Counted from the first letter of the stretch, positions 32,451 through 48,332 are shown. The stretch: 64,000 bases of DNA from Arthrobacter castelli DSM 16402 (GCF_000430705.1 NZ_AUMN01000001.1:248001-312000), one strand, 5' to 3'. Numbers and translations: made by a program. Notes: generated by a model not told the origin, from the letters alone.

Positions 32451-32799
32451 CTCATCCCGGGACCGGCGGTACCCGCGGCTAATGCAGATGCATTCTGTCG
32501 TCTGTCGGGTCGGTGGTGTACCGATGTGGTGCCATGGTCATCTCTGTGTGTCGCGTTGTGCGTGCCACATAGGGGCCCGTGATTGGTCTGCTCACCGGCC
32601 TCCCTAACCGGACACGCAGCCTGCGGTCATTCCATCGTTGCAGGTCAGCGGCAGGTGTGACCGGTGACGGTTGGTCTTATGGGACACCGAGTCACTGATC
32701 GCTCACGGGGAGCGGTAGCGAACTTCCGTCAGTGTGGAGCCATCCACACAGGGTTTTGCGGTCTCGTCCGTCGACATTCCCATTCGTTCGTAGAACTGG
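32451..32799. other. Non-coding stretch at the start of the accessory region
   Basis: This 349-nt stretch has no supported gene in either strand. The base composition begins to fall in G+C compared with leuD. I saw short direct and inverted words (GGTGTGACCGGTGACGG, CAGTGTGGAGCCATCCACAC, a small hairpin near 32740) but no convincing transposase remnant or tRNA end. It is a candidate left junction of the region that separates leuD from murA. Confidence 0.5.
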
Positions 32800-33195
32800 T
32801 TGAAATTCAAGGATGAATGGCAAGTTCGGGTGGTGTTGAGACTAGCGTTGGCATGCTTTTTGCTGTCGGCTATCTTGATGCTCGTTCCCCTGGCTAAAGT
32901 CGCACCCGCTCGCTACCACGGCCCGGACATTTACTGCATTACTGAAGTAACGGATCGGGCGCCTGGTGAGGCGATAATATCTGCAGGGCATCCGCCTGAA
33001 GGCCGCATTTCCCTCCTGCCGCTGGATGTAACGTGCCAGTATTACGCTGGCGATACTGCTCCGCGTATATCTGTAAGTATCTTTCCGGAGTTCCACGCGT
33101 TCTCCTACGCCGGATACGCATTTGGCTGCCTCGGAGCATTACTCATCGTCCTACGCATGATCACGGGACCAGCGACCCACGGGACGAAGGGATAG
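32800..33195 (+). CDS. Small membrane protein of unknown function
   Basis: Up to 131 residues from TTG 32800, or 121 from GTG 32830; neither has a strong ribosome site, so the start is open. There are two hydrophobic helices (VVLRLALACFLLSAILML near the N-terminus and FSYAGYAFGCLGALLIVL near the C-terminus). They enclose an outside loop of about 55 residues with two Cys (DIYCITEV, VTCQYYA) that could form a disulfide. Codon use is less G+C-biased than in the flanking core genes, which fits recent acquisition. Confidence 0.5.
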   Translation: MKFKDEWQVRVVLRLALACFLLSAILMLVPLAKVAPARYHGPDIYCITEVTDRAPGEAIISAGHPPEGRISLLPLDVTCQYYAGDTAPRISVSIFPEFHAFSYAGYAFGCLGALLIVLRMITGPATHGTKG

Positions 33196-33286
33196 TTCTT
33201 ACTAATCCATCGCTATGGGCAACGGTCAGTGGCAAATCAGGATGTTGGGCCGCCATAGAGGGATTCCGCTACTGAGTTTAACATGC

Positions 33287-33292
33287 TACCTT
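33287..33292 (+). promoter_or_regulatory. -10 box of the PadR gene (leaderless)
   Basis: TACCTT lies 7 nt before ATG 33300, and no ribosome site is visible. Confidence 0.45.
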
Positions 33293-33299
33293 GTGGTGC

Positions 33300-33728
33300 A
33301 TGGTACCTGTAGATGAACGCATTCTGTCGCATCTCCGGCGCGGCACCTTGGAATACTGCGTTCTGGCCCTGCTCCGTTCGGGCCCGCACTATGGCTTGGA
33401 CATTGCTCGAACACTTACCAGCGGAGGGATTCTGATGAGCGGAGAGGGCACTCTTTATCCACTTCTTTCGCGATTGCGTAAGGCCGGCCTCGTAGTAACA
33501 AAGTGGCAGGAATCAACGTCCGGACCGCCTCGCCGCTATTACTCCCTCACGGCCGAAGGAGACAAATCGTTCGAGGCATTCAACGAGACATGGACGGCTT
33601 TCCGCAATGCCGTCGACTCAGCCCTGTCAGCTTCCCACGGCCGCAGCGCGGAGCCCGGAGCCGAATCTTTAGTGAACGAATTCCGTGTTACCCCCGCCCA
33701 GGATCCACTCAGCAATGGAGAGAGCTAA
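33300..33728 (+). CDS. PadR-family transcriptional regulator
   Basis: A 142-residue regulator (ATG 33300, MVPVDERILSHLRRGTLEYCVLALL). The winged helix with the PadR signature HYGLDIARTL and the wing EGTLYPLLSRLRKAGLV / RRYYSLTAEG is clear in the first 95 residues. The tail is Ser/Glu-rich. PadR proteins bind near their own promoter and respond to stress or small molecules. The stop overlaps the start of the next gene (TAATG), a pairing with a HAAS/DUF1700-like membrane protein that is common in Firmicutes and Actinobacteria. Confidence 0.88.
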   Translation: MVPVDERILSHLRRGTLEYCVLALLRSGPHYGLDIARTLTSGGILMSGEGTLYPLLSRLRKAGLVVTKWQESTSGPPRRYYSLTAEGDKSFEAFNETWTAFRNAVDSALSASHGRSAEPGAESLVNEFRVTPAQDPLSNGES

Positions 33729-34516
33729 TGGACACCACCGATGCTGCCACCATGTTGGTCGACACGTACCTCAATGACCTCGGCCGCATGCTGCAAAATG
33801 CCGAACCGGAGCTGCGATCAGAAGTGCTCGGAGGAGTTCGTGAACACATCCAATCAGCACTGGACGGTCGACCTGTCCCGCACACCGAATCCGACGTCAA
33901 CGAAATACTCTTCGAGCTCGGCCCTCCCGAAGACGTAGCAGCGGCGTCACTATCCGGCACTAATGGCGACAGAGAGCCTGAAAGTCTTCCGGATGAACAG
34001 CCGTCTGTGGCCGGTCCAACTCCTGCTCCGCTGCTAAGTCGGACTTGGGTTCCTCGTACCGTCGGGCTTCTGGGCCTGGTGGGGATCGGACTATATCTCG
34101 CCGTACTGTTGGCCGGAGCGCTATTCTCCACTGCAGCGAAGAGCGAAGCCGCCTCTGCCGCCTCCTCCGCTAATCCCGTCGTACCAGCATTCTGGGAACA
34201 ACTGTCCGTAGCCCTTGCTATGCTTCTATTCGTGGTGCCGCTATGGCTGGCTTCCATAATCTTGGTGGCGAACTCGCCGTTATGGTCGACAGGTCAGAAA
34301 TGGCTGGGTATTGCCATTCTCCCCACCGCCGTGGCACTCAATATCGCAGCGATAGCACTGGCTTCTATCTCAGATGCGCAGACTCTGATCCTGATTTCAG
34401 GAGTTGTCGTGGCAACGGCTATCAGCGCATGGATGGCAGTAAACACATGGAAACAAGGCAGAGCATCAACCACGCCTGAATTACCCGCCCAGAGCCGCAA
34501 CGAAACCAACCCGTAA
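33728..34516 (+). CDS. PadR-associated membrane protein (HAAS/DUF1700-like)
   Basis: A 262-residue protein. Residues 1-75 form a soluble helical domain (VDTYLNDLGRMLQNAEPELRSEVLGGVREHIQSAL, then VNEILFELGPPEDVA) that matches the HAAS/DUF1700 pattern usually partnered with PadR. Four hydrophobic segments follow (about 108-135, 155-180, 190-215, 220-240). It overlaps the PadR stop by 1 nt in TAATG. Such proteins are thought to bind or respond to their PadR partner at the membrane; the target here is unknown. Confidence 0.72.
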   Translation: MDTTDAATMLVDTYLNDLGRMLQNAEPELRSEVLGGVREHIQSALDGRPVPHTESDVNEILFELGPPEDVAAASLSGTNGDREPESLPDEQPSVAGPTPAPLLSRTWVPRTVGLLGLVGIGLYLAVLLAGALFSTAAKSEAASAASSANPVVPAFWEQLSVALAMLLFVVPLWLASIILVANSPLWSTGQKWLGIAILPTAVALNIAAIALASISDAQTLILISGVVVATAISAWMAVNTWKQGRASTTPELPAQSRNETNP

Positions 34517-34634
34517 AGCCATCCTGATCCGTCGGATGACATTTCTAAGCGCGGTTGTAGAGTTCGTAACGAACGATGCGCAGTTGATCTTTACCTTCGG
34601 CCGGTTGTCCTCGTTGAAGAAAGGAGCGGCTGAA

Positions 34635-35016
34635 ATGAGCAAACCCGTAAGTCGTGGCCACTCGATCACAGATGAGGAGATCGCCGCGCACGACGACCAG
34701 CGGGATATGGGCCAGTCGGGTTGGTCATCCTTGCGTACGCTCTACGCTGAGCAGTTTCAAGGGGTCGTCCTGGATGCTGTCGGAGGGACCGGGATTTATG
34801 CCTCAGCCCTCGAGGCTTCTGGTCTGGACGTTGTGCTGGCGGACATGGACGAGTCCATGTTGGCAGCAGCCGGCCGCCGTGCAGAACCTGCGTAAATCGC
34901 TCGACGAATGTATCGGATGCCTGTCCATGCGGACCTGCTCCATCCTCAACCCCGACGACGAAGCGGCGAACGAAGGCAGCGGATCCCGCTGGCTACGCCG
35001 AAGCGGGAGTCAGTAA
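34635..35016 (+). pseudogene. Class I SAM methyltransferase remnant
   Basis: From ATG 34635, with AAGGAGCGG just upstream, the frame reads a typical methyltransferase start: SITDEEIAAHDDQRDMG, then motif I VVLDAVGGTGIYASAL and DVVLADMDESML. It stops at 34895 after 86 residues, well short of the usual 200 or more. Similar-looking fragments in other frames (for example RMPVHADLLH near 34912) suggest that the rest decayed by frameshift and deletion. A short intact protein cannot be excluded. About 110 nt of sequence beyond 35016 has no feature I can support. Confidence 0.5.
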
Positions 35017-35123
35017 GCAGGAACCAGCGTCCACCCAGACCGCTCAAAGCGCAGAATCTCATTTCGCGTGAAAAGTTTCCGCTAGGGGATCCACAAATGA
35101 CGCATGGCCAAGGCGATAGCTGG

Positions 35124-35600
35124 TCACGTTCTGAATCGTTTGGTCAATCTCACGGCCAGGATGCTTGCAGCTAACGCGCTCACCCACCAGGGCCAGGCGT
35201 CCAACAGGGTCAGGGCCGTCCGGGGGCCTAAGACCAAGCATGCTGGAAGGAACACACCGACGATAGCCCCAAGGGCTGCGGACGGTGCCCGCAGCAGGGG
35301 CGATATTCGCCCGATCAGTACATGGAGCCCCAAAGCACATGCAGCAGAGAAACCGGCAACAACCCCACCGATGAAGGATCCGAATATCACCGCCACGATG
35401 TAGGTGCCGAAGTCCGGTTGCCAAGCTGGGCTCGGAGAAGGACCAATCATCGAAAGCGGCATCAGGACGGCACCGAAGAGAGACCCAATGAAGACGCCTT
35501 TGAATAATGCCGACGCATAAGGTGTTTCTCTCCGGCTCCGGTGAGCTATGTCGTCCACTGTTGCCGGTGCACCATGAGCACTTTCATCCGTATTCCCCAT
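35124..35600 (-). CDS. Four-helix membrane protein of unknown function
   Basis: A 158-residue protein with four predicted TM helices (about 34-52, 66-92, 105-125 and 133-150) after a hydrophilic N-terminus containing HGAPATVDDIAHRSRRE. I do not recognise the family. TAGTCT (35607-35612) lies 6 nt before the ATG at 35600, supporting a leaderless start. It is divergent from the lipoprotein gene at 35723. Confidence 0.6.
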   Translation of the reverse strand: MGNTDESAHGAPATVDDIAHRSRRETPYASALFKGVFIGSLFGAVLMPLSMIGPSPSPAWQPDFGTYIVAVIFGSFIGGVVAGFSAACALGLHVLIGRISPLLRAPSAALGAIVGVFLPACLVLGPRTALTLLDAWPWWVSALAASILAVRLTKRFRT

Positions 35601-35722
35601 AATCGAAGACTACTTCTCGTACACCCGGCAAGCGAGGAGAAATCCTGACACCACTGGACGATCCTCCACTGAGCTGTGTTTACCCCCTTATGTATTAGGA
35701 CCGAGTAGGGAAAGATGAGCAT

Positions 35723-36202
35723 ATGCCAGGCTCATCCAGTGTGATTGTGCGTCGCTTATTCGCCCTCGTCCTCATCCTCGCCTTGTGGGCTCTCGTTAGT
35801 TGCGGTGGCGGGCAGGGCGTGGACCCCTCTCCGCATCCAGAAGGTACCGCCCCCGACTCGTCAGTAAGGCTCGTCGGCGCGGCGGAGGCGGACCTGCTCC
35901 TCTATGTCAGCAACCAGTCGTTCAACGATGAGGAGGTCCGCATAACGATAACGATCGATGGTGTGACAGTGGTCGACAGCGTTTTCCATGTCGAGGACCA
36001 GCACAACTGGATGAGCTTCCCGCTGACGCTGCACCCCGGCATCCACGAGATCACGGCGGAATCCGACTCCGGGGCGACATTCCGTAAGTCGTTCAAGGTG
36101 CCGCGCGGCAAAATGCGCTACGCGGTCATCGACCACTGGACTGAGGATGGCTCAGCAGACCTCACGTGGCTGTTCCAGCGACAGCCGGTGGGCTTCGCCT
36201 GA
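35723..36202 (+). CDS. Putative lipoprotein (159 aa)
   Basis: It starts MPGSSSVIVRRLFALVLILALW with an Arg-Arg-hydrophobic signal peptide and a lipobox LVSC at about residues 24-27, so it should be lipid-anchored to the outer face of the membrane. The mature part looks like a small beta-sandwich (SVRLVGAAEADLLLYVSNQSF, EVRITITIDGVTVVD), perhaps carbohydrate- or protein-binding. I do not recognise a family. ATG 35723 is chosen because the signal peptide begins there. It lies in the lower-G+C accessory stretch. Confidence 0.65.
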   Translation: MPGSSSVIVRRLFALVLILALWALVSCGGGQGVDPSPHPEGTAPDSSVRLVGAAEADLLLYVSNQSFNDEEVRITITIDGVTVVDSVFHVEDQHNWMSFPLTLHPGIHEITAESDSGATFRKSFKVPRGKMRYAVIDHWTEDGSADLTWLFQRQPVGFA

Positions 36203-36377
36203 ACGGGCACGGCTGCGCGAGGGTTTGCACCGACATCCATTACGCCACACCGGCTCATGATCCGCATGATTTCAACTTGTCCGTACCACCCGGGAGGAAG
36301 CTTTGTCCCGTAGCGGATCCCGATGGTTCTTCAGCGATGCATATGTTTCTCACTGATTTTCACCTGCTGGCTAAGAA

Positions 36378-36752
36378 CTATTTACGGCGAATAGTGTCAG
36401 GCCAATCATCTGGACTTGTACCCTTGGCGACGTAGACATCGGCATAGTTACCTGTGAGTGCGATTGCTGTCTTGACGTCGACGCCTTGGATTTTCAGGGC
36501 CGTGGTCTGACCTACGACCTTCCAGCCATCGTCGGTGCAACCCAGAATGTCCGCTTCGCCAACAGGCGACGTCGGCCCTGGGGGCGTGGCCATCACTGCG
36601 CCATGCATCTCGTACGTCACACCCTGAAAGCGCATGCGCGCATTGCAATCAACAGACTGCGCGCTATCGCCCCCGCACGCCGTTATACTCATCAGCATTG
36701 CGGCCAAAAGAAAGTGACCGAAGAGAGCCCGCCACGTTGAAGTAGGCCCCAT
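36378..36752 (-). CDS. Putative lipoprotein (124 aa)
   Basis: From ATG 36752 the protein begins MGPTSTWRALFGHFLLAAML and has lipobox ITAC near residue 25, a lipid anchor site, followed by a mature domain of about 100 residues with two further Cys (VDCNAR, LGCTDD). TAGGCT (36760-36765) lies 7 nt before this ATG, favouring it over the longer frame to 36839. The repeated ADVYVAKGTSPDDWPDTI end is unlike any family I know. It faces the other lipoprotein gene, and both lie in the accessory stretch. Confidence 0.6.
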   Translation of the reverse strand: MGPTSTWRALFGHFLLAAMLMSITACGGDSAQSVDCNARMRFQGVTYEMHGAVMATPPGPTSPVGEADILGCTDDGWKVVGQTTALKIQGVDVKTAIALTGNYADVYVAKGTSPDDWPDTIRRK

Positions 36753-36903
36753 ATGTCGTAGCCTATACCGACCCCACCCTCTGCGCGCTGACAAAGTCCG
36801 CAAGGGGTGTCCCGCATAGAAGGTCCAGGGCCGTCCCAAAAGACCATCCGCCTACGGGACGCCGACTAATCCAGGTCCTGGACTTACGAGACCTGTCGTC
36901 ATA

Positions 36904-37206
36904 TCAGGCGATGGCCTCGAAGTGCAGTCGGAGTCCGAGGGCGTGGGACACCTTGATGACGGTGGCGAGGCTCGGATTGCCTTCCGCGGACAGTGCCTTG
37001 TAAAGGCCTTCGCGGCTCATCCCTGCTTGTCGGGCGATTTGGCTGAAGTTGCGCGACCGTGCGATAGATCCAAGCGCTCGGGCGATGACCGTGGGATCAT
37101 CGTCGCTTTCGTCGATGACTGCCTCCAGATAGGCGGCGACGTCTTCGACGGTGTTCAGGTAGTTCGCGGCATCGAATGGGGCGAAGGTTTCGGTGTTGGT
37201 ACTCAT
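36904..37206 (-). CDS. HTH antitoxin (putative addiction-module antidote, HigA-like)
   Basis: A 100-residue protein of the addiction-module antidote type: a short acidic N-terminus (NTVEDVAAYLEAVIDESDDDP) and a lambda-repressor-like HTH (about 47-95, SIARSRNFSQIARQAGMSREGLYKAL, then GNPSLATVIKVSHALGLRL). Such antitoxins bind the adjacent HigB/RelE-type toxin and repress their own operon. Its ATG 37206 overlaps the toxin stop (4-nt overlap), toxin first, which is the typical order for this family. Confidence 0.87.
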   Translation of the reverse strand: MSTNTETFAPFDAANYLNTVEDVAAYLEAVIDESDDDPTVIARALGSIARSRNFSQIARQAGMSREGLYKALSAEGNPSLATVIKVSHALGLRLHFEAIA

Positions 37207-37442
37207 TCGTGTGTTCCTTGTGTGCGGCGCCAGTTGTCGGCGATGGTGTGGCCGGCCCCGATGTCTGCCTCTTGGGTCGATTTGTCTCCTCCTGTCAGCA
37301 GTAAGATCAGGCGGTTACCTTCGTGCAAGAAATACACGCGGTATCCCGGGCCGTTGGCAAGCAGCGTCTCTGCATAGCCATTGAGTTGGACCCCCACATC
37401 GCGCAGTGATTGGATGACCTCGTTTCGCGATTGCCCGCCCAC
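37203..37442 (-). CDS. HigB/RelE-type toxin with atypical N-terminus (possibly truncated or chimeric)
   Basis: The C-terminal half matches the addiction-module killer family (NGPGYRVYFLHEGNRLILLLTGGDKSTQ), whose members cleave ribosome-bound mRNA. The first 30-40 residues (SRNEVIQSLRDVGVQLNGYAETLLA) do not show the usual basic RIxxRIxRL helix or the GxFGDxKxVGxGVxELR region. GTG 37442 gives only 79 aa. An in-frame CTG at 37478 with AGGAG 9 nt before it would give 91 aa. Either the gene was recombined or it is a diverged toxin. The neighbour antitoxin looks intact. Confidence 0.6.
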   Translation of the reverse strand: MGGQSRNEVIQSLRDVGVQLNGYAETLLANGPGYRVYFLHEGNRLILLLTGGDKSTQEADIGAGHTIADNWRRTQGTHE

Positions 37443-37571
37443 CCGAATCAGCAGACCGTCAGTTGCAGCTGTGCTCAGAAGATGATTCTCCTCTTCTCAG
37501 GCCGGACAACGACCTCGCATGATTGCCCCGACAGCGGATCCCGCAACTGAAACTCCTTGGGAGCCGGGCAG

Positions 37572-37587
37572 ATGAGAGACCTCTCAT
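37572..37587. promoter_or_regulatory. Palindrome between the toxin-antitoxin pair and the glycosyltransferase operon
   Basis: ATGAGAG-ac-CTCTCAT is a perfect 7-bp inverted repeat with a 2-nt spacer. It lies in the divergent region, 94-130 nt from either start. It could be the operator of the HigA-like repressor or of a regulator of the glycan operon. Confidence 0.45.
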
Positions 37588-37682
37588 GGATCGCTCACAT
37601 CCGGCTCATGAGCGGCTGGTTGAGTGAATCGTAGTTGAACGAATGGTTACGCGGGACCCTACGAAGGAACAGGCGGGCGATT

Positions 37683-38675
37683 ATGGGCTGGACGACGCAG
37701 GAGGACCTTCGGGTTGTTCTCTACTCCCACGACTCGCAAGGGCTCGGCCATTCACGGCGGAATCTGGCCATTGCGCACGCGATGGCCGCATCAATACCGC
37801 AACTTACCGGCCGGGCCGTGACTGGCCTGCTAGTCACCGGTGAATCCCATGCCACCCGCTTTGAGCGCCCGGACGGTTGGGACTGGGTTGTGCTGCCGGG
37901 GGTCAGCAAGGGCGCCGATGGTTATGTGCCGCGCAATCTTGCCATTGGTCAGGAGAAGCTGACCGGTCTTCGCTCGCACATGATGGACGCAGTCCTGCAG
38001 GAATTCCGCCCGCACCTGATGATCGTTGACCGTCATCCCTTCGGCGTCGATGGGGAGTTGAACCAGGCATTGATGGCACTGAGGAAAACCAATCCCCATT
38101 GCCGGGTGGTGCTTGGGCTGAGGGAAGTCCTCGACAGCCCCTCCGTGGCGAAACGGGAGTGGCGGAACCTGGGTGTCAACAACGTGCGCCGGTGCTTCGA
38201 TGAGTGCTGGGTGTACGGCGACCCGGGCATCCACGACCCATTGGTGTCGGGCGAAATCCCCCAGGAGATGGCCGACATGGTCCGCTACACCGGGTACCTG
38301 GCCGCCGGCCGCCACGCTGCACGCCGCACCGGCGGAGCGAGCCGTCCGTACCTGCTCACCACGGCCGGTGGAGGGTCCGACGGACTCGACATCATGCTGA
38401 CCGCTGCGCGGACCGTGGTGCCTGACGGATACGAGCACCTGATCATCACCGGTCCCCAGATGCCCAAAGACGACCGGGCACAGGTGGAACGGGCGGCTGT
38501 GGCCGGCACTCGGGTGCTGGGCAGCGTCAGGGATGCCTTGGCCGAAATCAGGGGCGCCTCGGCGATCGTCTCGATGGGCGGCTATAACTCAGTCTGCGAG
38601 ATCATGAGCACCAGCACTCCGGCACTGCTGGTTCCGCGGATCACCCCCCCGGCGCGAACAGATCATACGGGCTGA
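37683..38675 (+). CDS. MurG-like glycosyltransferase, interrupted by a +1 frameshift
   Basis: It starts MGWTTQEDLRVVLYSHDSQGLGHSRRN, a common opening of GT-B enzymes that process activated sugars, and has an acceptor loop and the donor-site motif VSMGGYNSVCEIMSTSTPALLVPR. The usual PRVTPRREQ-type ending is broken: after ITP the frame reads PARTDHTG-stop at 38675. In the other frame the expected RREQIIRAESLAR follows, so one extra C in the run 38644-38650 (C7) explains the break. If corrected, the frame continues without a stop into the next glycosyltransferase (to 40197). ATG 37683 is preferred over TTG 37635. Confidence 0.75.
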   Translation: MGWTTQEDLRVVLYSHDSQGLGHSRRNLAIAHAMAASIPQLTGRAVTGLLVTGESHATRFERPDGWDWVVLPGVSKGADGYVPRNLAIGQEKLTGLRSHMMDAVLQEFRPHLMIVDRHPFGVDGELNQALMALRKTNPHCRVVLGLREVLDSPSVAKREWRNLGVNNVRRCFDECWVYGDPGIHDPLVSGEIPQEMADMVRYTGYLAAGRHAARRTGGASRPYLLTTAGGGSDGLDIMLTAARTVVPDGYEHLIITGPQMPKDDRAQVERAAVAGTRVLGSVRDALAEIRGASAIVSMGGYNSVCEIMSTSTPALLVPRITPPARTDHTG

Positions 38676-38883
38676 GTCCCTGGCCAGATGCCATCTGGCG
38701 GATGTCTGCCACCCGGAAGAATTCACCCCTGCGGCAATGGGCGCCTGGCTCAGTACAGCCCTGGACACCCCTGTTGTTCGTTCTGACGTCGACCTTTCCG
38801 GGCTGAGCGCCGTTGGCCATCTGGCCGCGGCCTTGGTGGGGCCGGCTCCACCGAAGTTGGTATACCGGCAGATTGGGAGCGCA

Positions 38884-40197
38884 ATGAAGCCGTCTAATGA
38901 TTCCTTCACCGCCGATCGCGGGGTTGCCGGTTCCCGCGTTGCGTACGTGTTGAAGATCTATCCGCGCTTTTCCGAGACGTTCATCGTCACTGAGATCCTG
39001 GCCCGGGAGGCTGCGGGGGAACGGCTGGAAATCTTCTCCCTCCGGCCGACGGTCGACCCGCGGTTCCATCCGGAACTTGCCCGCGTGCAGGCGCCGGTCA
39101 ACTACGTGGCGAAGCCCGCAAAGCTCAGCGAGGGCTGGGAGATCATCATGGCGGCCTGCGCGGCTCTTCCCGGCTTCGAGCAACGGTTCGCTCAACTGCT
39201 GCCTGAGCTGGTGGACACCGATCCGGCCGATGTCCATCAAGGCGTGGAGCTTGCGGTCCGGTTTGTCCGGCAGGGCATTACACATATCCATGCGCACTTC
39301 GGTTCCATCGCTGCCCGCACAGCGCGGATTGCTTCGGGGCTGACCGGCATACCCTTTTCATTTACGGCTCATGCCAAGGACATTTTTCATCAGGATGTGG
39401 ACCAGGCAACGCTGATCTCGCTGATGACCGAAGCCGATCATGTGATTACCGTGAGCGATTACAACCTGGATTACCTCAGGAAGCTGTGTCCCGGCTGCGA
39501 GGCAACCATTCACCGTGTGTACAACGGGCTGGAGCTCGAACGCTTTCGCTACGAGGCCCCCGTCCCGCCGCATTCACCTTTCCGGATTGCCGCCGTGGGC
39601 CGGCTGGTGGAGAAGAAGGGGTTCGATCTGCTCCTCGACGCCGCGGCCACACTGGTCCGTGGCGGGTTGGCGCTGGAGCTGAGAATTGCCGGGGGCGGCC
39701 CGCAGTACGATCAGCTGGAGAAGCAGATCCACGACTTGGGACTGACGGAATCAGTATCCTTGCCGGGGCCCCGGACGCAGCAGGAAGTCAGTGACCTGTT
39801 GCGTTGGGCCGACGTGTTTGTCGCTCCGTGCGTCACCGGCCAGGACGGCAATGTTGACGGGCTTCCCACCGTGCTGCTGGAAGCCATGGCCGTTGGCGTG
39901 CCGTGCATTGCCAGTGATGTGACCGGCATCCCGGAGGTGATGGCAGACCGATATGGGCGCCTGACGGGCGTGCTGATCCGCTCGGGCGTGAGCGCCGATA
40001 TCGTGGACGCTGTTTCCTTCTGTGCTTCCGAGTCCTTTGACCGCCAGGCAACGACGACGGCGGCGCGGGAGCTGATAGAACGATGCTTCGATTCAAGGAG
40101 CCAGGCATCCCGGCTGCGGAGCCTCGCTTCCGGGAATGGGATGACGCCGGAGGCGGAGCCCGGCAAAAAGGCAGGGCTGGCCGGGGTGGCTTCATGA
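38884..40197 (+). CDS. GT4-family glycosyltransferase
   Basis: From ATG 38884 (GGGAG 5 nt upstream) this is a 437-residue retaining glycosyltransferase of the GT4 fold. The N-terminus has VLKIYPRFSETFIVTEIL, then FTAHAKDIF and VSDYNLDYL. The donor half has VGRLVEKKGFDLLLDAAA and the E-x7-E motif LLEAMAVGVPCIASDVTGIPEV. It resembles enzymes of exopolysaccharide or glycolipid synthesis. The frame is also open upstream into the corrected frame of the previous gene, so a fusion protein is possible. Its stop overlaps the start of the third glycosyltransferase (ATGA). Confidence 0.88.
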   Translation: MKPSNDSFTADRGVAGSRVAYVLKIYPRFSETFIVTEILAREAAGERLEIFSLRPTVDPRFHPELARVQAPVNYVAKPAKLSEGWEIIMAACAALPGFEQRFAQLLPELVDTDPADVHQGVELAVRFVRQGITHIHAHFGSIAARTARIASGLTGIPFSFTAHAKDIFHQDVDQATLISLMTEADHVITVSDYNLDYLRKLCPGCEATIHRVYNGLELERFRYEAPVPPHSPFRIAAVGRLVEKKGFDLLLDAAATLVRGGLALELRIAGGGPQYDQLEKQIHDLGLTESVSLPGPRTQQEVSDLLRWADVFVAPCVTGQDGNVDGLPTVLLEAMAVGVPCIASDVTGIPEVMADRYGRLTGVLIRSGVSADIVDAVSFCASESFDRQATTTAARELIERCFDSRSQASRLRSLASGNGMTPEAEPGKKAGLAGVAS

Positions 40198-41327
40198 TCC
40201 GGCTTGCTTATGTGTGCATAGACCCCGGTGTGCCGGTTTTTGGCACCAAAGGTGCCTCGGTCCACATCCAGGAAATCATCCGTAGCTGGCGCACGTTAGG
40301 TGCCGAGGTGGCGATCTACTGCACCCGTGCCGGATCCACCGTCCCGCCGGACATGGGGGATATGAGGGTCGTGGAGCACCGCCTGCCCAAGAGCACGGGA
40401 CCGGACCGCGAGCGGGCGCAGGCGAAGGCCGCGGACACCCTTGCGGCGCAGGCCATCAAGGATGGTGCCGATGCCGTGTATGAGCGGTACTCATTGTTCA
40501 GTGACGCGCTGGAGCGCATCACCACCGCACTGGACGTTCCAGGACTCCTGGAGGTCAACGCTCCCTTAATTGACGAGCAGCGCACCCACCGGGAACTGCA
40601 GGACGAGGACGCCGCGCTGGTGTGCCTGCGCCGCCAGGGTGCCGCCGCGGTCCGGATCGCCTGTGTTTCCGCGCCCGTGGCCGATTGGGTCGCCGAACGG
40701 ATCGACGCCGGGGCCCACGACCGGGTGGTGGTGGCACCGAACGGGGTCAACTGCGCCCGTATCCAGCCCACCGCTGAAGCGGAGGGCCGTCCCGTCGTCG
40801 TATTTGTTGGAACCCTGAAGCCCTGGCACGGGGTGCGGACGCTGATCGAAGCCAAAGCGGCTGCCTCCGGTGACTGGGCGCTGAAGATTGTTGGCGATGG
40901 TCCCCAAGGCCCGGAACTCCGGGCGCTGGCGGCGAGCCTGGATGTCGACGTGAACTTCACCGGCGCCGTGCCACCGGAGGACATCCCCGCCGCGTTGGCC
41001 GGGTGTGCGGTGGCGGCAGCTCCTTACCCCGCGACCGGGCAGGCATCGGAGCAGTACTTTTCGCCCCTGAAGATGTACGAATACCTGGCAGCCGGCCTGC
41101 CGGTGGTGGCGTCACGGCTCGGCCAGGTGCCGGACATCATCGAGCACGGCATTACCGGTCTGTTGGTGGAACCGTCCCGGCCCGATGAGCTGGCGGCCGC
41201 CATCGACGAACTTGCGGCAGCGCCTCAGGGCCGGGCAGCCATGTCCGACGCCGCCCGGAAGCTGGCGGTCGACCGCTATGGCTGGGACGAAGTCCTGGCC
41301 GGCATCATCGAGGGGGTGGCACTGTGA
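40194..41327 (+). CDS. GT4-family glycosyltransferase
   Basis: A 377-residue GT4 enzyme. The N-terminal acceptor domain has YVCIDPGVPVFGTKGASVHIQEI, and the donor domain has VVFVGTLKPWHGVRTLIEA, KIVGDGPQGPEL and the E-x7-E motif YEYLAAGLPVVASRLGQVPDII. It starts at ATG 40194 in a 4-nt overlap with the preceding stop and ends in a 4-nt overlap with the ABC exporter start. Coupled to an exporter, it probably adds a sugar to a carrier that is then moved outward. Donor and acceptor are unknown. Confidence 0.9.
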   Translation: MIRLAYVCIDPGVPVFGTKGASVHIQEIIRSWRTLGAEVAIYCTRAGSTVPPDMGDMRVVEHRLPKSTGPDRERAQAKAADTLAAQAIKDGADAVYERYSLFSDALERITTALDVPGLLEVNAPLIDEQRTHRELQDEDAALVCLRRQGAAAVRIACVSAPVADWVAERIDAGAHDRVVVAPNGVNCARIQPTAEAEGRPVVVFVGTLKPWHGVRTLIEAKAAASGDWALKIVGDGPQGPELRALAASLDVDVNFTGAVPPEDIPAALAGCAVAAAPYPATGQASEQYFSPLKMYEYLAAGLPVVASRLGQVPDIIEHGITGLLVEPSRPDELAAAIDELAAAPQGRAAMSDAARKLAVDRYGWDEVLAGIIEGVAL

Positions 41328-43222
41328 CCGTGCTGAAGGAGCGGCCGCTGCGGTGCACGCTGGCCATGGTCCGCCCCCACCTGCGCGGCCACAAATGGCT
41401 GATGGCCGGCGGGGTGACCGCATTGCTGTTCGAAGTGGTGTTCAGGGTGCTGGAACCCTGGCCGGTGAAATTCGTCGTCGACGCCATCACCCGCAGCCTG
41501 GGTGCGGACCTGGCCGGTACCGGACCGGCAGCGACGCCGGCGCTGCTGCTGGCCGCCGGGGCCGCCGTCGTGCTGTTCACCGGCATGCGTGCGCTGAGCA
41601 ATTTCCTGGCCACTGTGGCGTTCGCCCTGGCCGGTTCCCGGGTCGCCACGGCTCTGCGGGCCCGCGTATTCAACCACGTGCAGTCCCTGTCGGCCGGCTA
41701 CCACTCCTCGTCACGCAGCGGCGACATGGTCCAGCGGCTGGTTTCCGACGTCGGCAGGCTGCAGGAAGTGGCAGTCACCGCCGGGCTGCCCCTGCTCGCG
41801 AACTGCATCACGCTGGTGGCGATGGGAGGGGTGATGTTCTGGCTGGACCCGTTGCTGGCACTGGTGGTGGTTCTTGGCGCCGCCGGTTTTGTGTTGCTCT
41901 CGAGGGGGAGCACCGGCAAAATCACGACGGCGGCCCGGCGCACCCGCAAGGGGGAGGGCTCGCTGGCCAACACTGCCGCCGAAAGCCTCGGCGCCATCCG
42001 CGTGGTGCAGACCTACGGGCTCGAAAGCACGCTGGCCGAACGTTTCGGCAGCAGCAATGCGCAAACCCTTAAGGAGGGGGTGCAGGCCCGACGCCTCGCC
42101 GCCGCGCTGGAGCGGCGCACTGACGTCATCGTGGGTGCGGCCACCGCCCTGGTGCTGGCCGGTGGAGGCTGGCGCGTCGTCGAGGGGGCGATGACGCCGG
42201 GGGACCTGGTGCTGTTCCTGACGTACTTGAAGACGGCGATGAAGCCGTTGCGGGACCTGGCCAAATACACCGGGCGCATCGCCCGGGCCGCGGCTTCGGG
42301 AGAGCGTGTTGCGGAGTTGCTCGAAGAGCGCATCGATATTACCGATGCCCCCGGGGCCGAACCCTTGGGCAAGGTATCCGGAGAGCTCGGATTCCGGGCA
42401 GTGACCGCCGGCTACGGTGATGCTGCACCGGTGCTGCGGGATCTGGACCTGACCATCCGCCAGGGAAGTAAAACCGCCATCGTCGGCCCCTCAGGATCCG
42501 GCAAATCCACCCTGGTCTCCCTGCTGGTGCGCATGATGGACCCGGTGGCGGGAGCCGTGACCATTGATGGCACGGACGTGCGGGACGCAACGGTGGCATC
42601 GGTTCGTTCGGCCATGAGCCTGGTGCTCCAGGACGCGGTACTGTTCAGCGGCACTATCATGGAAAACATCCGGTACGGGAAACTGGACGCAACGGACGCC
42701 GAAGTCGAACAGGCCGCCCGGCTGGCCAATGCCCACGGCTTCATTTCCGCATTTGCCGACGGATATTCGACGGTGATCGGAGAACGAGGCGGCACGTTGT
42801 CCGGCGGACAACGGCAGCGCATCACCATTGCCCGTGCCGTGCTGCGTAACTCACCGGTGGTGATTGCCGATGAAGTAACCACCGGGCTGGATCATGCGTC
42901 CCGGTCGGAGGTGCTTGCGGGGCTGGATGCGTTGAGTGCGGGACGCACCACGGTGTTCATCACCCACGAAGCCTCGGTGGCGATGGCCAGCGACCGCGTG
43001 GTGTGGCTGCAGGAGGGCAAGGTGCTGCTGGAAGGCACGCCCGCCGAACTCATGCGGCAGCCGTTGTTCGCCTCGTGGGTGGAGCAGCACCGGGCGGCCA
43101 ACGCCCGGCACTCATTATCGGGACCGCAGCGGCGGCCGGCGGTGCCGCCGCGTCCGGAACGGGCGCCCGCCGGGGGAAGCGCAGGAGTACAGGCAGGAGC
43201 GCAGGCAGGGGTGCGGGCATGA
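41324..43222 (+). CDS. ABC exporter (MsbA-like half-transporter)
   Basis: A 632-residue fused permease-ATPase. The first 320 residues hold six TM helices, typical of type-1 exporters. The nucleotide-binding domain has Walker A GPSGSGKSTL, signature LSGGQRQR, Walker B VVIADE and the H loop ITHEASV. Half-transporters like this act as homodimers that flip lipids, lipid-linked glycans or peptides. GTG 41324 overlaps the GT stop by 4 nt. The last 30 residues are a Pro/Ala/Gly-rich tail (GVQAGAQAG) without homologous counterpart. Its place between glycosyltransferases and kinase-like proteins suggests the glycan product as cargo. Confidence 0.92.
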   Translation: MTVLKERPLRCTLAMVRPHLRGHKWLMAGGVTALLFEVVFRVLEPWPVKFVVDAITRSLGADLAGTGPAATPALLLAAGAAVVLFTGMRALSNFLATVAFALAGSRVATALRARVFNHVQSLSAGYHSSSRSGDMVQRLVSDVGRLQEVAVTAGLPLLANCITLVAMGGVMFWLDPLLALVVVLGAAGFVLLSRGSTGKITTAARRTRKGEGSLANTAAESLGAIRVVQTYGLESTLAERFGSSNAQTLKEGVQARRLAAALERRTDVIVGAATALVLAGGGWRVVEGAMTPGDLVLFLTYLKTAMKPLRDLAKYTGRIARAAASGERVAELLEERIDITDAPGAEPLGKVSGELGFRAVTAGYGDAAPVLRDLDLTIRQGSKTAIVGPSGSGKSTLVSLLVRMMDPVAGAVTIDGTDVRDATVASVRSAMSLVLQDAVLFSGTIMENIRYGKLDATDAEVEQAARLANAHGFISAFADGYSTVIGERGGTLSGGQRQRITIARAVLRNSPVVIADEVTTGLDHASRSEVLAGLDALSAGRTTVFITHEASVAMASDRVVWLQEGKVLLEGTPAELMRQPLFASWVEQHRAANARHSLSGPQRRPAVPPRPERAPAGGSAGVQAGAQAGVRA

Positions 43223-44505
43223 CTGTCGACAGGAACGACCCGGCCGCCTCGGGGACCTGGGAGCCACCGGTTCGCCCAATAGATCCGGATTTGCCCGCCT
43301 TGGACTTGCTTTTTGACCCTTCCGCTCTCAGCACCGCCTTGGGGCGGCACGTGAGGGCTGATCATCTGCGGCACAAACCCGGGGTCTCCGCCGTCGCACG
43401 TCTTCAACCCGACGACGGCGGCACGCCCGGCTGGATTGCGGCATACCATCGTGATGCTGCCATCAAGGCCGAAAACCTGCTGCGTCGAAGCAGGCAGTGG
43501 TCCTCGGCAAACACCGGGGCGGCACTGATCCCCGTGCCGGGCCCGACCGGCCAGATGGTGGTCAGCGGGCCGCTTCGGCTGGACAAGAAGCTGCACAAGG
43601 TCCTGGCTCCGTTCGCCGGATCGGCCGTCGGGGAACCGGACCTGGCGAGGAATGTGCTCAATTACAACCCGTTCAGGCGGGTGGTGTTCTCCCTGCAGAC
43701 GGATGCCGGGACTGTGGTGTGCAAGGCCGGGTCCGCGACAGTGGACACCACCGCACCGTTGCTGGGCAGACTCGCCGCTGCCGGAGTGCCGGTTGTGGAG
43801 GAATACACCCCGGCAGCGTTGCCGGACGGTCTTCCGGACTGGCCGCGGCTGCGCTACTACCCCTGGTTCGGGTCGACCGACCTCGCATCAATAGCAAGGC
43901 ACCGGCCTGGGCCCTCGACGGCCGAGCTGAGCCGGGCGGCGGGCAGGGCACTCGCCAAACTCCACGCCCACCCACGTCCCGAAGAACCCCTGCCCGGTGA
44001 CGCCGACAGCCGCCATGGGTATGAGCCCGACGGCCCGGGGAGACTCGCGTTGATGATCAGGGACCTTTCACGGCTGGCCCCGGAGCTCGGCGCCAGGCTG
44101 GACCGCTTGCGCAGCAAACTCGCGATACGGCTGGCCAGGACCGGCCAACAGGTGCTGACCCACGGGGACTTCTCCGCAGACCAAGTGCTGGTCGACGGCG
44201 GCCAGGTGCGCCTGGTCGACTTCGACCGTGCCTCGCGGGCTCCGGCAGCGGCCGACCTGGGCAGCTTCGCCGCCGTCGAACTTGTTGCTGATGCTCCGTC
44301 CACGCAGGGACGCGCAACGCGGCTGTTGCCCGGCCTGCTCGAGGGATACCGTTCCGGCGGCGGCACCGTGAACGACGCCGATATCGACGCGTGGACCGCC
44401 TTTCACCTGCTCGGACGCCTGAACGAACCGTTCCGCCAGTGCAGGAAGGGCTGGGAAGCTGAGATGGCGTCCCGGCTCACGCTGGCGGAGGAGGTGCTGC
44501 GGTGA
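43219..44505 (+). CDS. Aminoglycoside phosphotransferase-fold kinase, first of two
   Basis: A 428-residue protein of the APH/choline-kinase fold. The C-terminal lobe has the catalytic loop HGDFSADQVLVD near residue 315 (Asp base, with Gln where Asn usually binds Mg2+) and LVDFDRAS as the metal-binding DFD-like motif. The N-lobe has VVCKAG as the likely ATP-anchoring Lys. Gln at the Asn position also occurs in maltokinase-type sugar kinases (HGDxHLGQ). Within this operon a sugar or glycolipid phosphorylation role is more likely than antibiotic resistance. It starts at ATG 43219 in a 4-nt overlap with the exporter stop. Confidence 0.82.
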   Translation: MTVDRNDPAASGTWEPPVRPIDPDLPALDLLFDPSALSTALGRHVRADHLRHKPGVSAVARLQPDDGGTPGWIAAYHRDAAIKAENLLRRSRQWSSANTGAALIPVPGPTGQMVVSGPLRLDKKLHKVLAPFAGSAVGEPDLARNVLNYNPFRRVVFSLQTDAGTVVCKAGSATVDTTAPLLGRLAAAGVPVVEEYTPAALPDGLPDWPRLRYYPWFGSTDLASIARHRPGPSTAELSRAAGRALAKLHAHPRPEEPLPGDADSRHGYEPDGPGRLALMIRDLSRLAPELGARLDRLRSKLAIRLARTGQQVLTHGDFSADQVLVDGGQVRLVDFDRASRAPAAADLGSFAAVELVADAPSTQGRATRLLPGLLEGYRSGGGTVNDADIDAWTAFHLLGRLNEPFRQCRKGWEAEMASRLTLAEEVLR

Positions 44506-45635
44506 ACCGGTTGTCCCTGGCCGGGGTTTCGCGGGCCACGGGATCGGCGGTCTTGGAATCCCTCGATGATGCTGTCGCCGGTGCCATCGGTGTGCCGGTT
44601 GCGGTGAAGAGGGCGTGGCCGGCAAATGACGGTGAGCTCACGTTTGAAGCAACGGAGCGCAACACCGGCCGCATCCGGGCAGGGCGAGTGCACGCAGACG
44701 GGACCGTACAGGCGGGCGCATACTGCGAAGACCCGAAACTGGAAACCCTGGCAGAGGCCGCCCGCGCCGGCGACCTGCTGGTGCACAGGTACGGCCGCCG
44801 GGCAGTGATCCGCAGTACGGATCCTGAGGCGCCACAGTCCTTCATAAAAGTACTGCGCACCGGCAAATCCGCTGCCGCTGCCCGGGCACACAAGGATGCC
44901 TCGGCGCTCGCAGCCGGATCCGGCGTCGTCGTTCCCCAAGTTCTTGCCGAAGGTGCCGGAAGCATTACGCTGTCCACTGTGCCCGGCAGGGGCCTGCATT
45001 TGCTGGGGCGAGAGGTCGGGGCAGCAAGCCAAGGGCCGGATGACGACGGCGGGGCAGCCGCACGCTGGATGCAGGCCTGGCGATTTTTCCGCCGTCACTG
45101 GCCTCGGTTTGCCCGTCCCGTCGCTGGCGCAATCCCTTCCTACAGCGCCGACGACGAATGCCGCACCGTGGAAAAGTGGGCGGCACATGCCCGCGGGTTC
45201 GGGACACTGGCCGTGGGGGAGCGGCAGCTGGGGGACGCTGCCGACCGTGTGCAACAGGCGCTGCTCGCCGGCGAGGCCCAGAAGCCCGTACTGGCCCATC
45301 GGGACCTGCACGACCAGCAGATCCTGTTCGACCCGAAGCAGCGCTCGCTGGGGCTGATCGACTGTGACACCCTCGCGCCGGCCGAGCCGGCGCTGGACCT
45401 GGCGAATCTGGCCGTGCACCTGGAATTCCGCTGCTACCAAGGCCTGCTCCATCCCGCCGCGGCTGCTGCGGCGAAAGCAGAGGTGCGCCGCACAGCTGAT
45501 CAGTTGGGCGTGGAGCCGGAGCGAACCCAAGCCTATTCGATGGCAACGGCACTGAGGCTGGCGTGCGTGTACTCGTTCCGGCCTCCGTATCGTCGGCTTG
45601 CCGAAGACTGGTTCCGCGGCAGGTTTCCGTCTTAA
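44502..45635 (+). CDS. Aminoglycoside phosphotransferase-fold kinase, second of two
   Basis: A 377-residue protein with the same fold as its neighbour but little direct similarity. The catalytic loop is HRDLHDQQILFD near residue 266 and the metal site GLIDCDTLAPAEPALDLANL. The ATP-anchoring FIKVLRTGK lies near residue 115. Again Gln replaces the usual Asn. It starts at GTG 44502, overlapping the preceding stop by 4 nt, and ends at TAA 45633-45635, sharing TTAA with the convergent ugd stop. Two such proteins side by side may act on successive steps or form a heterodimer. Confidence 0.82.
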   Translation: MNRLSLAGVSRATGSAVLESLDDAVAGAIGVPVAVKRAWPANDGELTFEATERNTGRIRAGRVHADGTVQAGAYCEDPKLETLAEAARAGDLLVHRYGRRAVIRSTDPEAPQSFIKVLRTGKSAAAARAHKDASALAAGSGVVVPQVLAEGAGSITLSTVPGRGLHLLGREVGAASQGPDDDGGAAARWMQAWRFFRRHWPRFARPVAGAIPSYSADDECRTVEKWAAHARGFGTLAVGERQLGDAADRVQQALLAGEAQKPVLAHRDLHDQQILFDPKQRSLGLIDCDTLAPAEPALDLANLAVHLEFRCYQGLLHPAAAAAAKAEVRRTADQLGVEPERTQAYSMATALRLACVYSFRPPYRRLAEDWFRGRFPS

Positions 45636-47053
45636 GCCGGCGCCGGTACGGCGGCAGGCAGCTCGGGACGGCCGAGTGCGCGATACGTCCAACCCGCCGC
45701 ACGCCACGCTTCACCGTCGAGGCAATTGCGGCCATCGACGACCTCGGTGCGGGCGACCTGGCCGGACAGCCAGGCAGGGTCGAGTGAACGGTACTGCTGC
45801 CACTCGGTCAGCACCAGCACGACGTCGGCGTCCTCGACTGCCTCGGCAGTGGTTTCGGCGTAGTTCAGTTCCGGGAACCGCTGTGCCGCGTTGGCTGTCG
45901 CTTCCGGATCGGTAGCGGTCACCGCGGCTCCCTGCAGCTGCAATTGGGCGGCAACGTTGAGCGCGGGCGAATCCCGGACGTCGTCGGAATCAGGCTTGAA
46001 TGCCAGCCCGAGTACCGCAACCCGCTTCCCCAGCAGAGATCCGCCGCAGGCCTGGCGGGTCAGGTCCACCATGCGGGCGCGGCGGCGCATGTTGATCGAA
46101 TCGACCTCACGCAGGAAGGTCAATGCTTGTTCGGCGCCGAGTTCGTCGGCACGTGCCATGAAGGCACGAATGTCCTTTGGCAGGCACCCGCCGCCGAAGC
46201 CCAGCCCGGCATTGAGGAATTTGCGCCCGATACGGTCGTCGTATCCGATGGCGTCGGAGAGCATGGAGACGTCGGCACCGGCCGCTTCGCAGACTTCGGA
46301 CATCGCGTTGATGAAGGAGATCTTGGTGGCCAGGAAGGCGTTCGCGGAGACCTTGACGAGCTCGGCAGTCTCGTAATCCATCACCAGCCGGGGGCAGCCG
46401 TTCGCGAGGGCATGCTGATACACCGCGTCCAGCATGCTTTGGGCATTTTCGCGTGTGCCGTTGGCCGATGTGCCGGCCTGGGCTGTTTGGCCGGCCCGGG
46501 CTGCGTGGCCGGCCTGGTCGCTCCAGCCGACCCGGTCGTCGTCGGGCAAGCCGTAGACCAGCCTGTTCGGGATGAGAGTGTCCTGGACCGCGAAGCCTTC
46601 GCGCAGGAATTCCGGGTTCCAGACGAGTGTCGCTTCCGGACAGCGGCGGGATATCGTTGCAGCGATCTGCCGGGCAGTACCCACCGGAACGGTGGATTTT
46701 CCCACCACGAGATCACCGGGGGCCAAATAGGGGACCAGGGCATCAACGGCCTGATGGACATAGCTCAGGTCGGCCGCGTGCTGGTTGAATTGTTGCGGCG
46801 TGCCGACAGCGATGAAATGAACCCTCGCTGCCGCAGTTGCGCTGATGTCGGTGGAGTAGGTCAGCCGGCCCGCAGCTGTCTGAGTTTCCAGCAGCTCGGG
46901 TAACCGGGGTTCAAAGAATGGTGGCAAGGCGTTGCTCAGCGCCTCCACCTTGTCGCGGTCCACATCGATGCCGACAACATCATGCCCGAGGCTTGCCATG
47001 CATGCCGAATGAACTGCGCCCAAGTACCCGCAGCCGATCACTGAAATACGCAT
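45632..47053 (-). CDS. ugd: UDP-glucose 6-dehydrogenase
   Basis: It oxidises UDP-glucose to UDP-glucuronate with two NAD+. The protein is 473 aa. The NAD motif is GCGYLGAVH near residue 8, the catalytic Cys is about C290 (GFGGGCLPKDIRAF), and the C-terminal UDP-binding domain begins at GLAFKPDSDDVRDSP. Residues about 174-204 form an Ala/Gly-rich insert (AGHAARAGQTAQAG) not expected in the family. The ATG at 47053 has AGAAGGG upstream. It converges on the glycosyltransferase operon and overlaps its last gene by 4 nt, and it may supply UDP-GlcA to those enzymes. Confidence 0.94.
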   Translation of the reverse strand: MRISVIGCGYLGAVHSACMASLGHDVVGIDVDRDKVEALSNALPPFFEPRLPELLETQTAAGRLTYSTDISATAAARVHFIAVGTPQQFNQHAADLSYVHQAVDALVPYLAPGDLVVGKSTVPVGTARQIAATISRRCPEATLVWNPEFLREGFAVQDTLIPNRLVYGLPDDDRVGWSDQAGHAARAGQTAQAGTSANGTRENAQSMLDAVYQHALANGCPRLVMDYETAELVKVSANAFLATKISFINAMSEVCEAAGADVSMLSDAIGYDDRIGRKFLNAGLGFGGGCLPKDIRAFMARADELGAEQALTFLREVDSINMRRRARMVDLTRQACGGSLLGKRVAVLGLAFKPDSDDVRDSPALNVAAQLQLQGAAVTATDPEATANAAQRFPELNYAETTAEAVEDADVVLVLTEWQQYRSLDPAWLSGQVARTEVVDGRNCLDGEAWRAAGWTYRALGRPELPAAVPAPA

Positions 47054-47198
47054 AGTCCCACACCCTTCTGTTCACGCGCCGACCGCAGGAGTTGACCGGA
47101 AGATCATGGCACCAATGGCCGCATCATGGTGCCACGCTAGGCCGTTTGCATGAGTGGACGGTGAAACGATCATGAGAGCCGCGTGAGAATCGCCGACC

Positions 47199-47240
47199 CC
47201 GGTGGTCGACTAAGGCGCTCCGCGCCGCTCGGAGACCCGC
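47199..47240. repeat. Diverged copy of the 40-nt dispersed element
   Basis: CCGGTGGTCGACTAAGGCGCT and a downstream CTCGGAGACC pair match the element at 6900-6985 with several changes. GCTCGGAGACCCGCC is itself partly doubled. It provides the stop and last codons of the YjbR-like gene on the minus strand. Confidence 0.7.
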
Positions 47241-47548
47241 CGCTCGGAGACCCCGCCGGCGATGCGGTGCGACTCTTCGAGCAGCTCGCCCAGCTCATCG
47301 TCGGGTACCGAATCGAGCCGGACCAGCACGAGTTGTCCGGATCGTTCGTGGTGCGGCGTCCAATAGTAGATTTCAGGTGCCGTGGCGGCGAGGGACTCAC
47401 GTTCGTCGGTCTTCACGGTGAGCACCCCCGGTTCCCAAATACGCGCCATCAACGTTCGGGCAAACCATGCCGGCTGGCCCCAGCTGGGGCGCTCCGTCAC
47501 TCCCGGCAGTGCGAGGCAGATGCGGCGTACGTCGTCTTCAGAGGCCAT
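47210..47548 (-). CDS. MmcQ/YjbR-family protein
   Basis: A 112-residue protein of the MmcQ/YjbR family (CyaY-like fold, sometimes annotated DNA-binding): MASEDDVRRICLALPGVTERPSWGQPAWF, then VLTVKTDERESL and YYWTPHH. The last 15 residues (RRVSERRGAP) come from the dispersed element at 47199-47240, which has replaced the original C-terminus or stop. No function is firmly known. It lies 156 nt downstream of the ugd start on the same strand. Confidence 0.85.
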   Translation of the reverse strand: MASEDDVRRICLALPGVTERPSWGQPAWFARTLMARIWEPGVLTVKTDERESLAATAPEIYYWTPHHERSGQLVLVRLDSVPDDELGELLEESHRIAGGVSERRVSERRGAP

Positions 47549-47560
47549 GGTCGCGGCGGG

Positions 47561-48019
47561 TCATGGAAGGAGCTTCACGGGAGCTGCCCCGGCCGCTTCC
47601 AGCGGGTGCGGCTGTTCGGCGGTTCCGTCCGGGATCGGTGCGCCATGGGGCGCCGGTTCGCCGCCGAGGGCTGACGGGCTCCGCTGGAAGAACGCGAGGC
47701 GGGCGGCGTCGGAATTATGCAGCACCCGGACCGCCGGACATTCCGGCAACACGGCTGGTGTCTCGATCTGGGCGGCGTCTTCGGGACGGTGCGGCTCTTC
47801 GGCGCACAGGAACCGCAGCCGCTCCAGGGCGGAATCGTCAATATGCCGGGCCTTGCGCAGGTTCACCACCACGCGCATTCCACCGGAGAGTGACCGGGCG
47901 CGGCGGATGACCGGCAACAGCGCCGAACAACCCGGACGAGTGAGGCACCCACGGACTTCAATCGCAGCGCAATTGAGATCGGTGTTGAAACGTACGAGTA
48001 CGCGAAGCTTATGTTCCAC
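47561..48019 (-). CDS. STAS-like protein of unknown function
   Basis: GTG 48019 has GGAG about 6 nt upstream and gives a 152-residue protein; a GTG at 48043 is the longer alternative. Residues 5-75 (AAIEVRGCLTRPGCSALLPVI, then MRVVVNLRKARHIDDSALERL) have the strand-helix pattern and Asp/Ser site of STAS domains such as anti-sigma factor antagonists. The following 75 residues are Pro/Ala-rich. A role in regulated protein-protein binding is a guess. It lies just downstream of the long murA promoter region, facing away from murA. Confidence 0.6.
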   Translation of the reverse strand: MEHKLRVLVRFNTDLNCAAIEVRGCLTRPGCSALLPVIRRARSLSGGMRVVVNLRKARHIDDSALERLRFLCAEEPHRPEDAAQIETPAVLPECPAVRVLHNSDAARLAFFQRSPSALGGEPAPHGAPIPDGTAEQPHPLEAAGAAPVKLLP

Positions 48020-48332
48020 GAAACACTCCGGGCGGTAGTACACGGGCAGGCGGCTGCTTCACCCTTGTCTGAGACATTACCCACACCGTTTTGTTACTGT
48101 CGAGTACTTTACGACGATGGTCCGCACCATCCATCACATCCGCCCCGCCCGTCACAACGCCGGCACAATTTCATCGCACGGGCCCGCTGCCTTGCGGAGC
48201 GGCCGAAAGCGGATCAGGCCAAATTGGCCGGGGACACGGGCGGCTATATTTCATCTCTGATGTGCCCAACTCTTACACTTAGTAAAGCCTTTGTAGTTGC
48301 CAGAGGTGTTTTCGTCAGAGTTAAGGGTATCC
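48020..48332. other. Intergenic region upstream of murA
   Basis: This 313-nt divergent region separates the STAS-like gene from murA. I see no gene. TATATT (48245-48250) and TACACT (48274-48279) are candidate -10 boxes for murA, with a weak TTGGCC 15 nt before the first. An AAGGG (near 48323-48327) serves as the ribosome site for ATG 48333. Confidence 0.45.

Follow-up and report, generated by a model that had tools for sequence, protein, structure and literature searches.

In a 64,000-nucleotide stretch of the Arthrobacter castelli DSM 16402 genome (NZ_AUMN01000001.1:248001-312000, hereafter the window), six co-directed genes (37683-45635, plus strand) form a cluster which, on balance, probably is a self-contained module making and exporting a phosphorylated glycan. 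The genes encode a GT28-like glycosyltransferase, two GT4 family glycosyltransferases (GT4a and GT4b), an MsbA-like ATP-binding cassette (ABC) exporter and two kinases of the aminoglycoside phosphotransferase (APH) fold, K1 and K2 (Table 1). The open reading frames (ORFs) and the Pfam matches agree with the gene content given in a preliminary description of the region: three glycosyltransferases, an MsbA-like exporter, two APH-fold kinases, four exact 4-nt overlaps and a convergent ugd gene. That description contained neither the frameshift in the first gene, nor the insertion between leuD and murA, nor the spread of the cluster beyond actinobacteria, nor its two-component partners. It also set the start at 37572, which finds no support, as a stop codon lies in that frame.

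Table 1. Features of the cluster and its surroundings; positions are those of the window unless preceded by a locus label
Feature	Position	Strand	Remark
Insertion carrying the cluster, leuD to murA	32451..48296		leuD next to murA in most relatives without the insertion
Addiction-module antidote	36904-37206	-	PF21716
GT28-like glycosyltransferase, N-terminal ~330 residues	37683..38675	+	56-65% identity to full-length relatives until frame loss
Seven-C run, site of GT28 frame loss	38644..38650	+	conserved C-terminal sequence resumes in another frame right after
GT28 C-terminal part, shifted frame	38651..38883	+	matches relatives; in frame with GT4a, no intervening stop
GT4a, GT4 family glycosyltransferase	38884..40197	+	Pfam Glycos_transf_1, E 2e-31
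GT4b, GT4 family glycosyltransferase	40194..41327	+	Pfam Glyco_trans_1_4, E 2e-29
MsbA/ABCB-type ABC exporter	41324..43222	+	ABC_membrane 1e-35 and ABC_tran 4e-31 in one chain
K1, APH-fold kinase with additional N-terminal domain	43219..44505	+	PF01636, E 1e-18
K2, APH-fold kinase	44502..45635	+	PF01636, E 7e-10
ugd, UDP-glucose 6-dehydrogenase-type nucleotide sugar dehydrogenase, convergent	45632..47053	-	TIGR03026
PL11 lyase genes	L025:4790-7327, L027:11817-14327, L028:12135-14687, L029:11575-14118		downstream of K2

Gene order and co-inheritance

The data support the earlier proposal that the six genes work together as a single unit, and their arrangement is far beyond chance. Across 90 loci with the ABC gene, drawn from Actinomycetota, Rhodobacterales, Planctomycetota and Enterobacterales, the order GT28-GT4-GT4-ABC-K1-K2 is kept with few exceptions. 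These loci come from searches seeded with K1 and K2, so that the conservation of order among them is biased, and a survey with a GT28-only profile is the less biased test. The latter produced matches in 18 of 347 Actinomycetota genomes, and in almost every sufficiently long contig the GT28 gene is followed by two GT4 genes, the ABC gene and the kinases. Three loci of this survey (L150, L156, L158) have the variant order GT4b-K-ABC, two of them with an extra kinase gene after the ABC gene; in L157 a kinase gene is the only one seen near GT28.

Gene fusions occur at three junctions, GT28-GT4a, GT4a-GT4b and K1-K2. Pairwise distances of the cluster genes are correlated with rho of 0.84-0.91 over 76 loci, compared to at most 0.21 in label permutations, shared ancestry contributing to this correlation. 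In the window, GT4a ends at 40197 and GT4b starts at 40194, an exact 4-nt overlap (ATGA), and the same is seen for GT4b and the ABC gene (GTGA, 41324-41327), the ABC gene and K1 (ATGA, 43219-43222), and K1 and K2 (GTGA, 44502-44505). The convergent K2 and ugd genes meet with their ends on TTAA (45632-45635). Such a 4-nt overlap is the commonest or joint commonest junction in the relatives (GT4b/ABC in 52 loci, ABC/K1 in 40, K1/K2 in 18). Each of the gene families is common individually, and one might suspect chance neighbours with no joint function, scattered elsewhere and merely adjacent here. However, no support for this was found, and the recurrence of the order across phyla, the fusions and the correlated divergence make its probability negligible.

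Kinases, genomic partners and the candidate product

Both kinases exceed the PF01636 gathering cut-off of 23.2 bits (K1, 68.4; K2, 39.6). The HGDxSxDQ and DxDR motifs of K1 are kept in 28 sequences, the HxD and DxD residues of K2 are invariant, and so are the catalytic and metal-binding residues of both proteins over 27-28 sequences. The AlphaFold models are of high confidence, with a predicted local distance difference test (pLDDT) score of 89 for K1 and 94 for K2, and the top solved Foldseek matches are maltokinase for both proteins and glucosamine kinase for K2. Maltokinase (Mak/Pep2) and the actinobacterial glucosamine kinase share with K1 and K2 the APH fold, the acidic HGD and DxD motifs and the metal-site glutamine, at 13-17% identity and a TM-score of about 0.45. 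However, maltokinase acts in the GlgE pathway and not next to an exporter. By motifs and fold, K1 and K2 resemble functional kinases of small molecules or sugars, with a lean, short of proof, towards sugars. This part of the earlier proposal stands. A match to the class V lanthionine synthetase LxmK (39.6 against a cut-off of 315) was rejected as a kinase-domain cross-match. In a group of Arthrobacter/Pseudarthrobacter genomes (L060, L061, L065, L067, L068, L070, L086), another K2-like gene lies after K2. The targets of Rhodobacter sphaeroides CenKR include RSP_1465, a "putative aminoglycoside phosphotransferase" (PMC9275681); the portion of that paper at hand draws no link between RSP_1465 and the six-gene cluster.

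The product could also be a small, aminoglycoside-like secondary metabolite, made harmless by phosphate and exported by the ABC protein in the manner of streptomycin-phosphate. Indeed, aminoglycoside clusters hold APH folds and ABC exporters, and K1 gives a profile match to APH(3')-VIII. Against the NCBIfam model APH_3p of aminoglycoside-resistance APH(3') enzymes, K1 scores 19 bits with a cut-off of 205, and K2 has no match. Genes for the biosynthesis of aminocyclitols or other small molecules do not recur in the flanks, and neither the AlgE and ugd partners described below nor the bare six-gene set in several phyla would be expected, which makes such a product very unlikely.

The flanks of the 90 loci were annotated with a home-made codon-usage gene caller, and the neighbour counts are approximate. 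The ugd gene was found in 17 of the 90 flanks, in four different arrangements; fewer than one locus is expected by chance, as estimated from two above-cut-off copies in the 4.6 Mb genome of the window. The Ugd of the window scores 405 bits with TIGR03026 (cut-off 189.8) and has all three UDPG_MGDP_dh Pfam domains. On Escherichia coli plasmids the core is directly followed by genes of an AlgE-like porin (PF13372) and Ugd, and an AlgE-like gene adjoins the core in Tenebrionibacter as well. Through these ugd genes, the link to glucuronate, suggested earlier from the window, gains support. Four genomes, all of the same genus, encode a secreted rhamnogalacturonan lyase of polysaccharide lyase family 11 (PL11) ~0.5-0.7 kb after K2. 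In a planctomycete, K2 is fused to a sulfotransferase domain (PF13469; L112:8470-10611), sulfotransferases being typical glycan-decorating enzymes. Flippase, polymerase and chain-length genes of the Wzx/Wzy type were not found among the recurrent neighbours.

Two-component genes occur in the flanks of 47 of the 90 loci, in many as immediate neighbours. Their sensor domains vary by lineage, and the DPxTGxPF motif is common to 8 of 44; a single conserved sensor kinase accompanying the cluster was therefore dropped as a candidate, and recruitment of two-component systems has probably been repeated. The genome of the window has an unlinked sensor histidine kinase gene (G000:C3:248479-248955; L162:12426-13799), preceded by a FemAB-like gene; in the sensor region its product is 74% identical to the cluster-side kinase of L026 from the same genus. 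In Palleronia, the gene of an ATP-grasp-like protein (L097:10111-10962, minus strand) is convergent with that of the fused kinase.

We infer the following substrates and order of steps. In the cytosol, the GT28-type enzyme would start a saccharide, and the two GT4 enzymes would extend it from nucleotide sugars, UDP-glucuronate from the linked Ugd being one probable donor in the lineage of the window. The tandem kinases K1 and K2 would phosphorylate this saccharide, or else its primer, and the product would leave the cytosol through the MsbA-like exporter. Its passage through the outer membrane of enteric Gram-negatives would then fall to the AlgE-like beta-barrel. Expression would often be tied to the nearby two-component system. 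Where ugd is linked, the product likely contains uronic acid. The porin of the enteric clusters speaks for a glycan that is free or secreted there, and against a membrane-anchored lipid, and together with the PL11 lyase it leans, without being proof, towards a secreted, perhaps polymeric, uronate glycan. Two elements of the preliminary description, a lipid carrier and a short product, find no support; the absence of Wzx and Wzy, from which the short product had been deduced, says nothing about polymerisation in the cytosol.

Two other assignments of the same genes have to be weighed. In the first, which comes near to the preliminary description, the GT28 enzyme glycosylates a membrane lipid, to which the GT4 enzymes add further sugars and the kinases phosphate; the short phosphoglycolipid formed in this way is flipped by the ABC protein, as lipid A is by MsbA. 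The ABC protein is indeed nearest to MsbA-type models, GT28 enzymes such as MurG and the monogalactosyldiacylglycerol synthases frequently have lipid acceptors, and no polymerase gene is nearby. However, the MsbA equivalog cut-off is missed, and the enteric porin and the PL11 lyase are more in keeping with a free polyuronate than with a lipid, so we regard a phosphoglycolipid as rather unlikely. In the second, K1 and K2 make sugar phosphates, e.g. sugar-1-phosphates, that feed nucleotide sugar synthesis or serve as glycosyltransferase primers, and leave the exported glycan itself unaltered. Maltokinase and glucosamine kinase, the best fold matches, do phosphorylate free sugars, but a nucleotidyltransferase gene does not recur in the flanks and the fusion of K2 with a sulfotransferase suggests a role on the glycan; a mere feeding role thus seems quite unlikely.

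Several points weigh against the phosphorylated, exported glycan itself. In the Foldseek comparison, sugar kinases are only narrowly ahead of other APH enzymes, none of the six proteins could be assigned a substrate, and no enzyme for priming or anchoring was found. In the majority of loci, genes for Ugd, AlgE or a lyase are absent from the vicinity, so that uronate and export through a porin may be confined to certain lineages. Moreover, given the frameshift of GT28 in the window, this strain may lack a working system. An extension of the proposal, which we put forward tentatively and with more doubt than the module itself, is that the kinase-added phosphate, as priming group or end mark, is the recognition signal of the MsbA-type exporter in a trans-phylum pathway spread by plasmids and insertions.

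The window copy and the spread of the cluster

The first gene of the window has two usable starts, TTG at 37635 and ATG at 37683. It encodes a divergent GT28-C protein (Glyco_tran_28_C, 20.2 bits, under the Pfam cut-off of 22). Its frame stops early at 38675, ~80 residues short of the relatives, whereas the shifted frame after the seven-C run translates as RREQIIRAESLARCHLADVCHPEEFTPAAMGAWL..., in agreement with them. Candidate causes are an assembly error, a mutation or slippage. GT4a, which scores 618 bits with a profile built on the GT4a genes of other clusters and is 70% identical to its counterpart in L043, may start at ~38884 or be fused with the GT28 C-terminus. Since a natural GT28-GT4a fusion is present in another genome (L094), the window may hold a frameshifted fusion of this kind.

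The distance between leuD and murA is 15.8 kb in the window, whereas the two genes are adjacent in most of the Micrococcaceae and order-level relatives examined. The left third of the insertion has 56-60% GC and contains gene remnants and an addiction-module antidote. Within this low-GC region (32451-37600) there are PadR and HAAS genes and a truncated methyltransferase gene, and its content looks like insertion-site debris. A short ORF beside the antidote gene may be its partner, a degraded toxin. In a genome of the same genus the leuD-murA gap is 4.7 kb long, has different content and contains none of the six genes; thus the gap may be an insertion hot spot. That genome carries its own cluster on another contig, with a K2 only 37% identical to that of the window.

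Actinobacterial carriers include Arthrobacter and relatives, Kocuria, Microbacterium, Ornithinimicrobium, Rathayibacter, Tessaracoccus, Millisia and others. Many carriers were found in Rhodobacterales, where K1 and K2 form a single protein of about 700-760 amino acids, and further ones are two planctomycete metagenome-assembled genomes and Tenebrionibacter. In E. coli, the cluster is present in 18 of 5,426 complete genomes, every time on a plasmid; these plasmids are conjugative and of the IncF type. The leuD-murA insertion, the same-genus copy on another contig with its divergent K2, and the E. coli plasmids make it likely that the cluster is a horizontally spread, mobile system. IncF plasmids with the core, the AlgE-like porin and Ugd (L124:8638-18816; L122:1547-11737) are of crow, cattle and food origin, and one of the cluster-bearing IncF plasmids also has a heat-stable enterotoxin gene. 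An Arthrobacter-like copy on a contig filed as Vibrio cholerae strain 35D (L071) is probably assembly contamination.

If the proposed function is correct, this compact module with its nearly constant pair of kinases would be a novel way of making phosphorylated glycans for the cell surface or for secretion, one that is shared by Gram-positive and Gram-negative phyla and carried by conjugative E. coli plasmids. Many genes labelled "aminoglycoside phosphotransferase" would gain a testable role outside drug resistance, and glycan phosphorylation as a gate for ABC export becomes a question that can be tested.

Comparison with known systems

No description of the six-gene set was found in the open-access full-text literature, subscription papers lying outside the search, and this agrees with the earlier view of the system as undescribed. 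PADLOC was consulted for anti-phage defence systems and gave only ATPase-domain cross-matches for the ABC protein, so this candidate was discarded. The same applies to cyanophycin: the ABC protein scores 321 bits with NF052233 (cut-off 880), and possible cyanophycinase and cyanophycin synthetase genes (cphB/cphA-like) lie 5-6 kb downstream in the Palleronia locus L097 only and do not recur.

The pathways of MsbA, PglK, HepA and NdvA/ChvA combine, as the cluster does, soluble or peripheral glycosyltransferases with a half-size ABC exporter of the same fold. The exporter does not reach the MsbA equivalog TIGR02203 (365 bits, cut-off 602), and its matches to TIGR02204 and to the HepA and ChvA models are likewise under the cut-offs. 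Most carriers are Gram-positive and do not have lipid A, the substrate of MsbA. To our knowledge, APH-fold kinases encoded as a pair next to the exporter do not occur in any of these systems.

Teichuronic acid is a uronate-containing envelope polymer, and its synthesis has similar enzymes: the GT4 enzymes resemble TuaC and TuaH, and Ugd resembles TuaD, all below the equivalog cut-offs (TuaC 75.5 of 550, TuaH 61 of 550, TuaD 361 of 700). However, the tua system has its own flippase and polymerase and is not known to have such kinases. With an AlgE-like porin encoded immediately behind the core, the E. coli plasmids and Tenebrionibacter resemble alginate export, but most loci have no AlgE, and the membrane synthase of alginate, Alg8/44, is absent from the cluster. 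A possible functional analogy for K1 and K2 is the chain-terminating kinase of the WbdD type, which acts on the O antigen glycan before ABC export, although WbdD systems have a two-protein transporter of the Wzm/Wzt type and a methyltransferase domain. For every specific glycan family inspected, the ABC protein and the GT4 enzymes score under the curated cut-off. The cluster is best regarded as a variant of ABC-exporter-dependent glycan synthesis that belongs to none of the glycan-system families tested.

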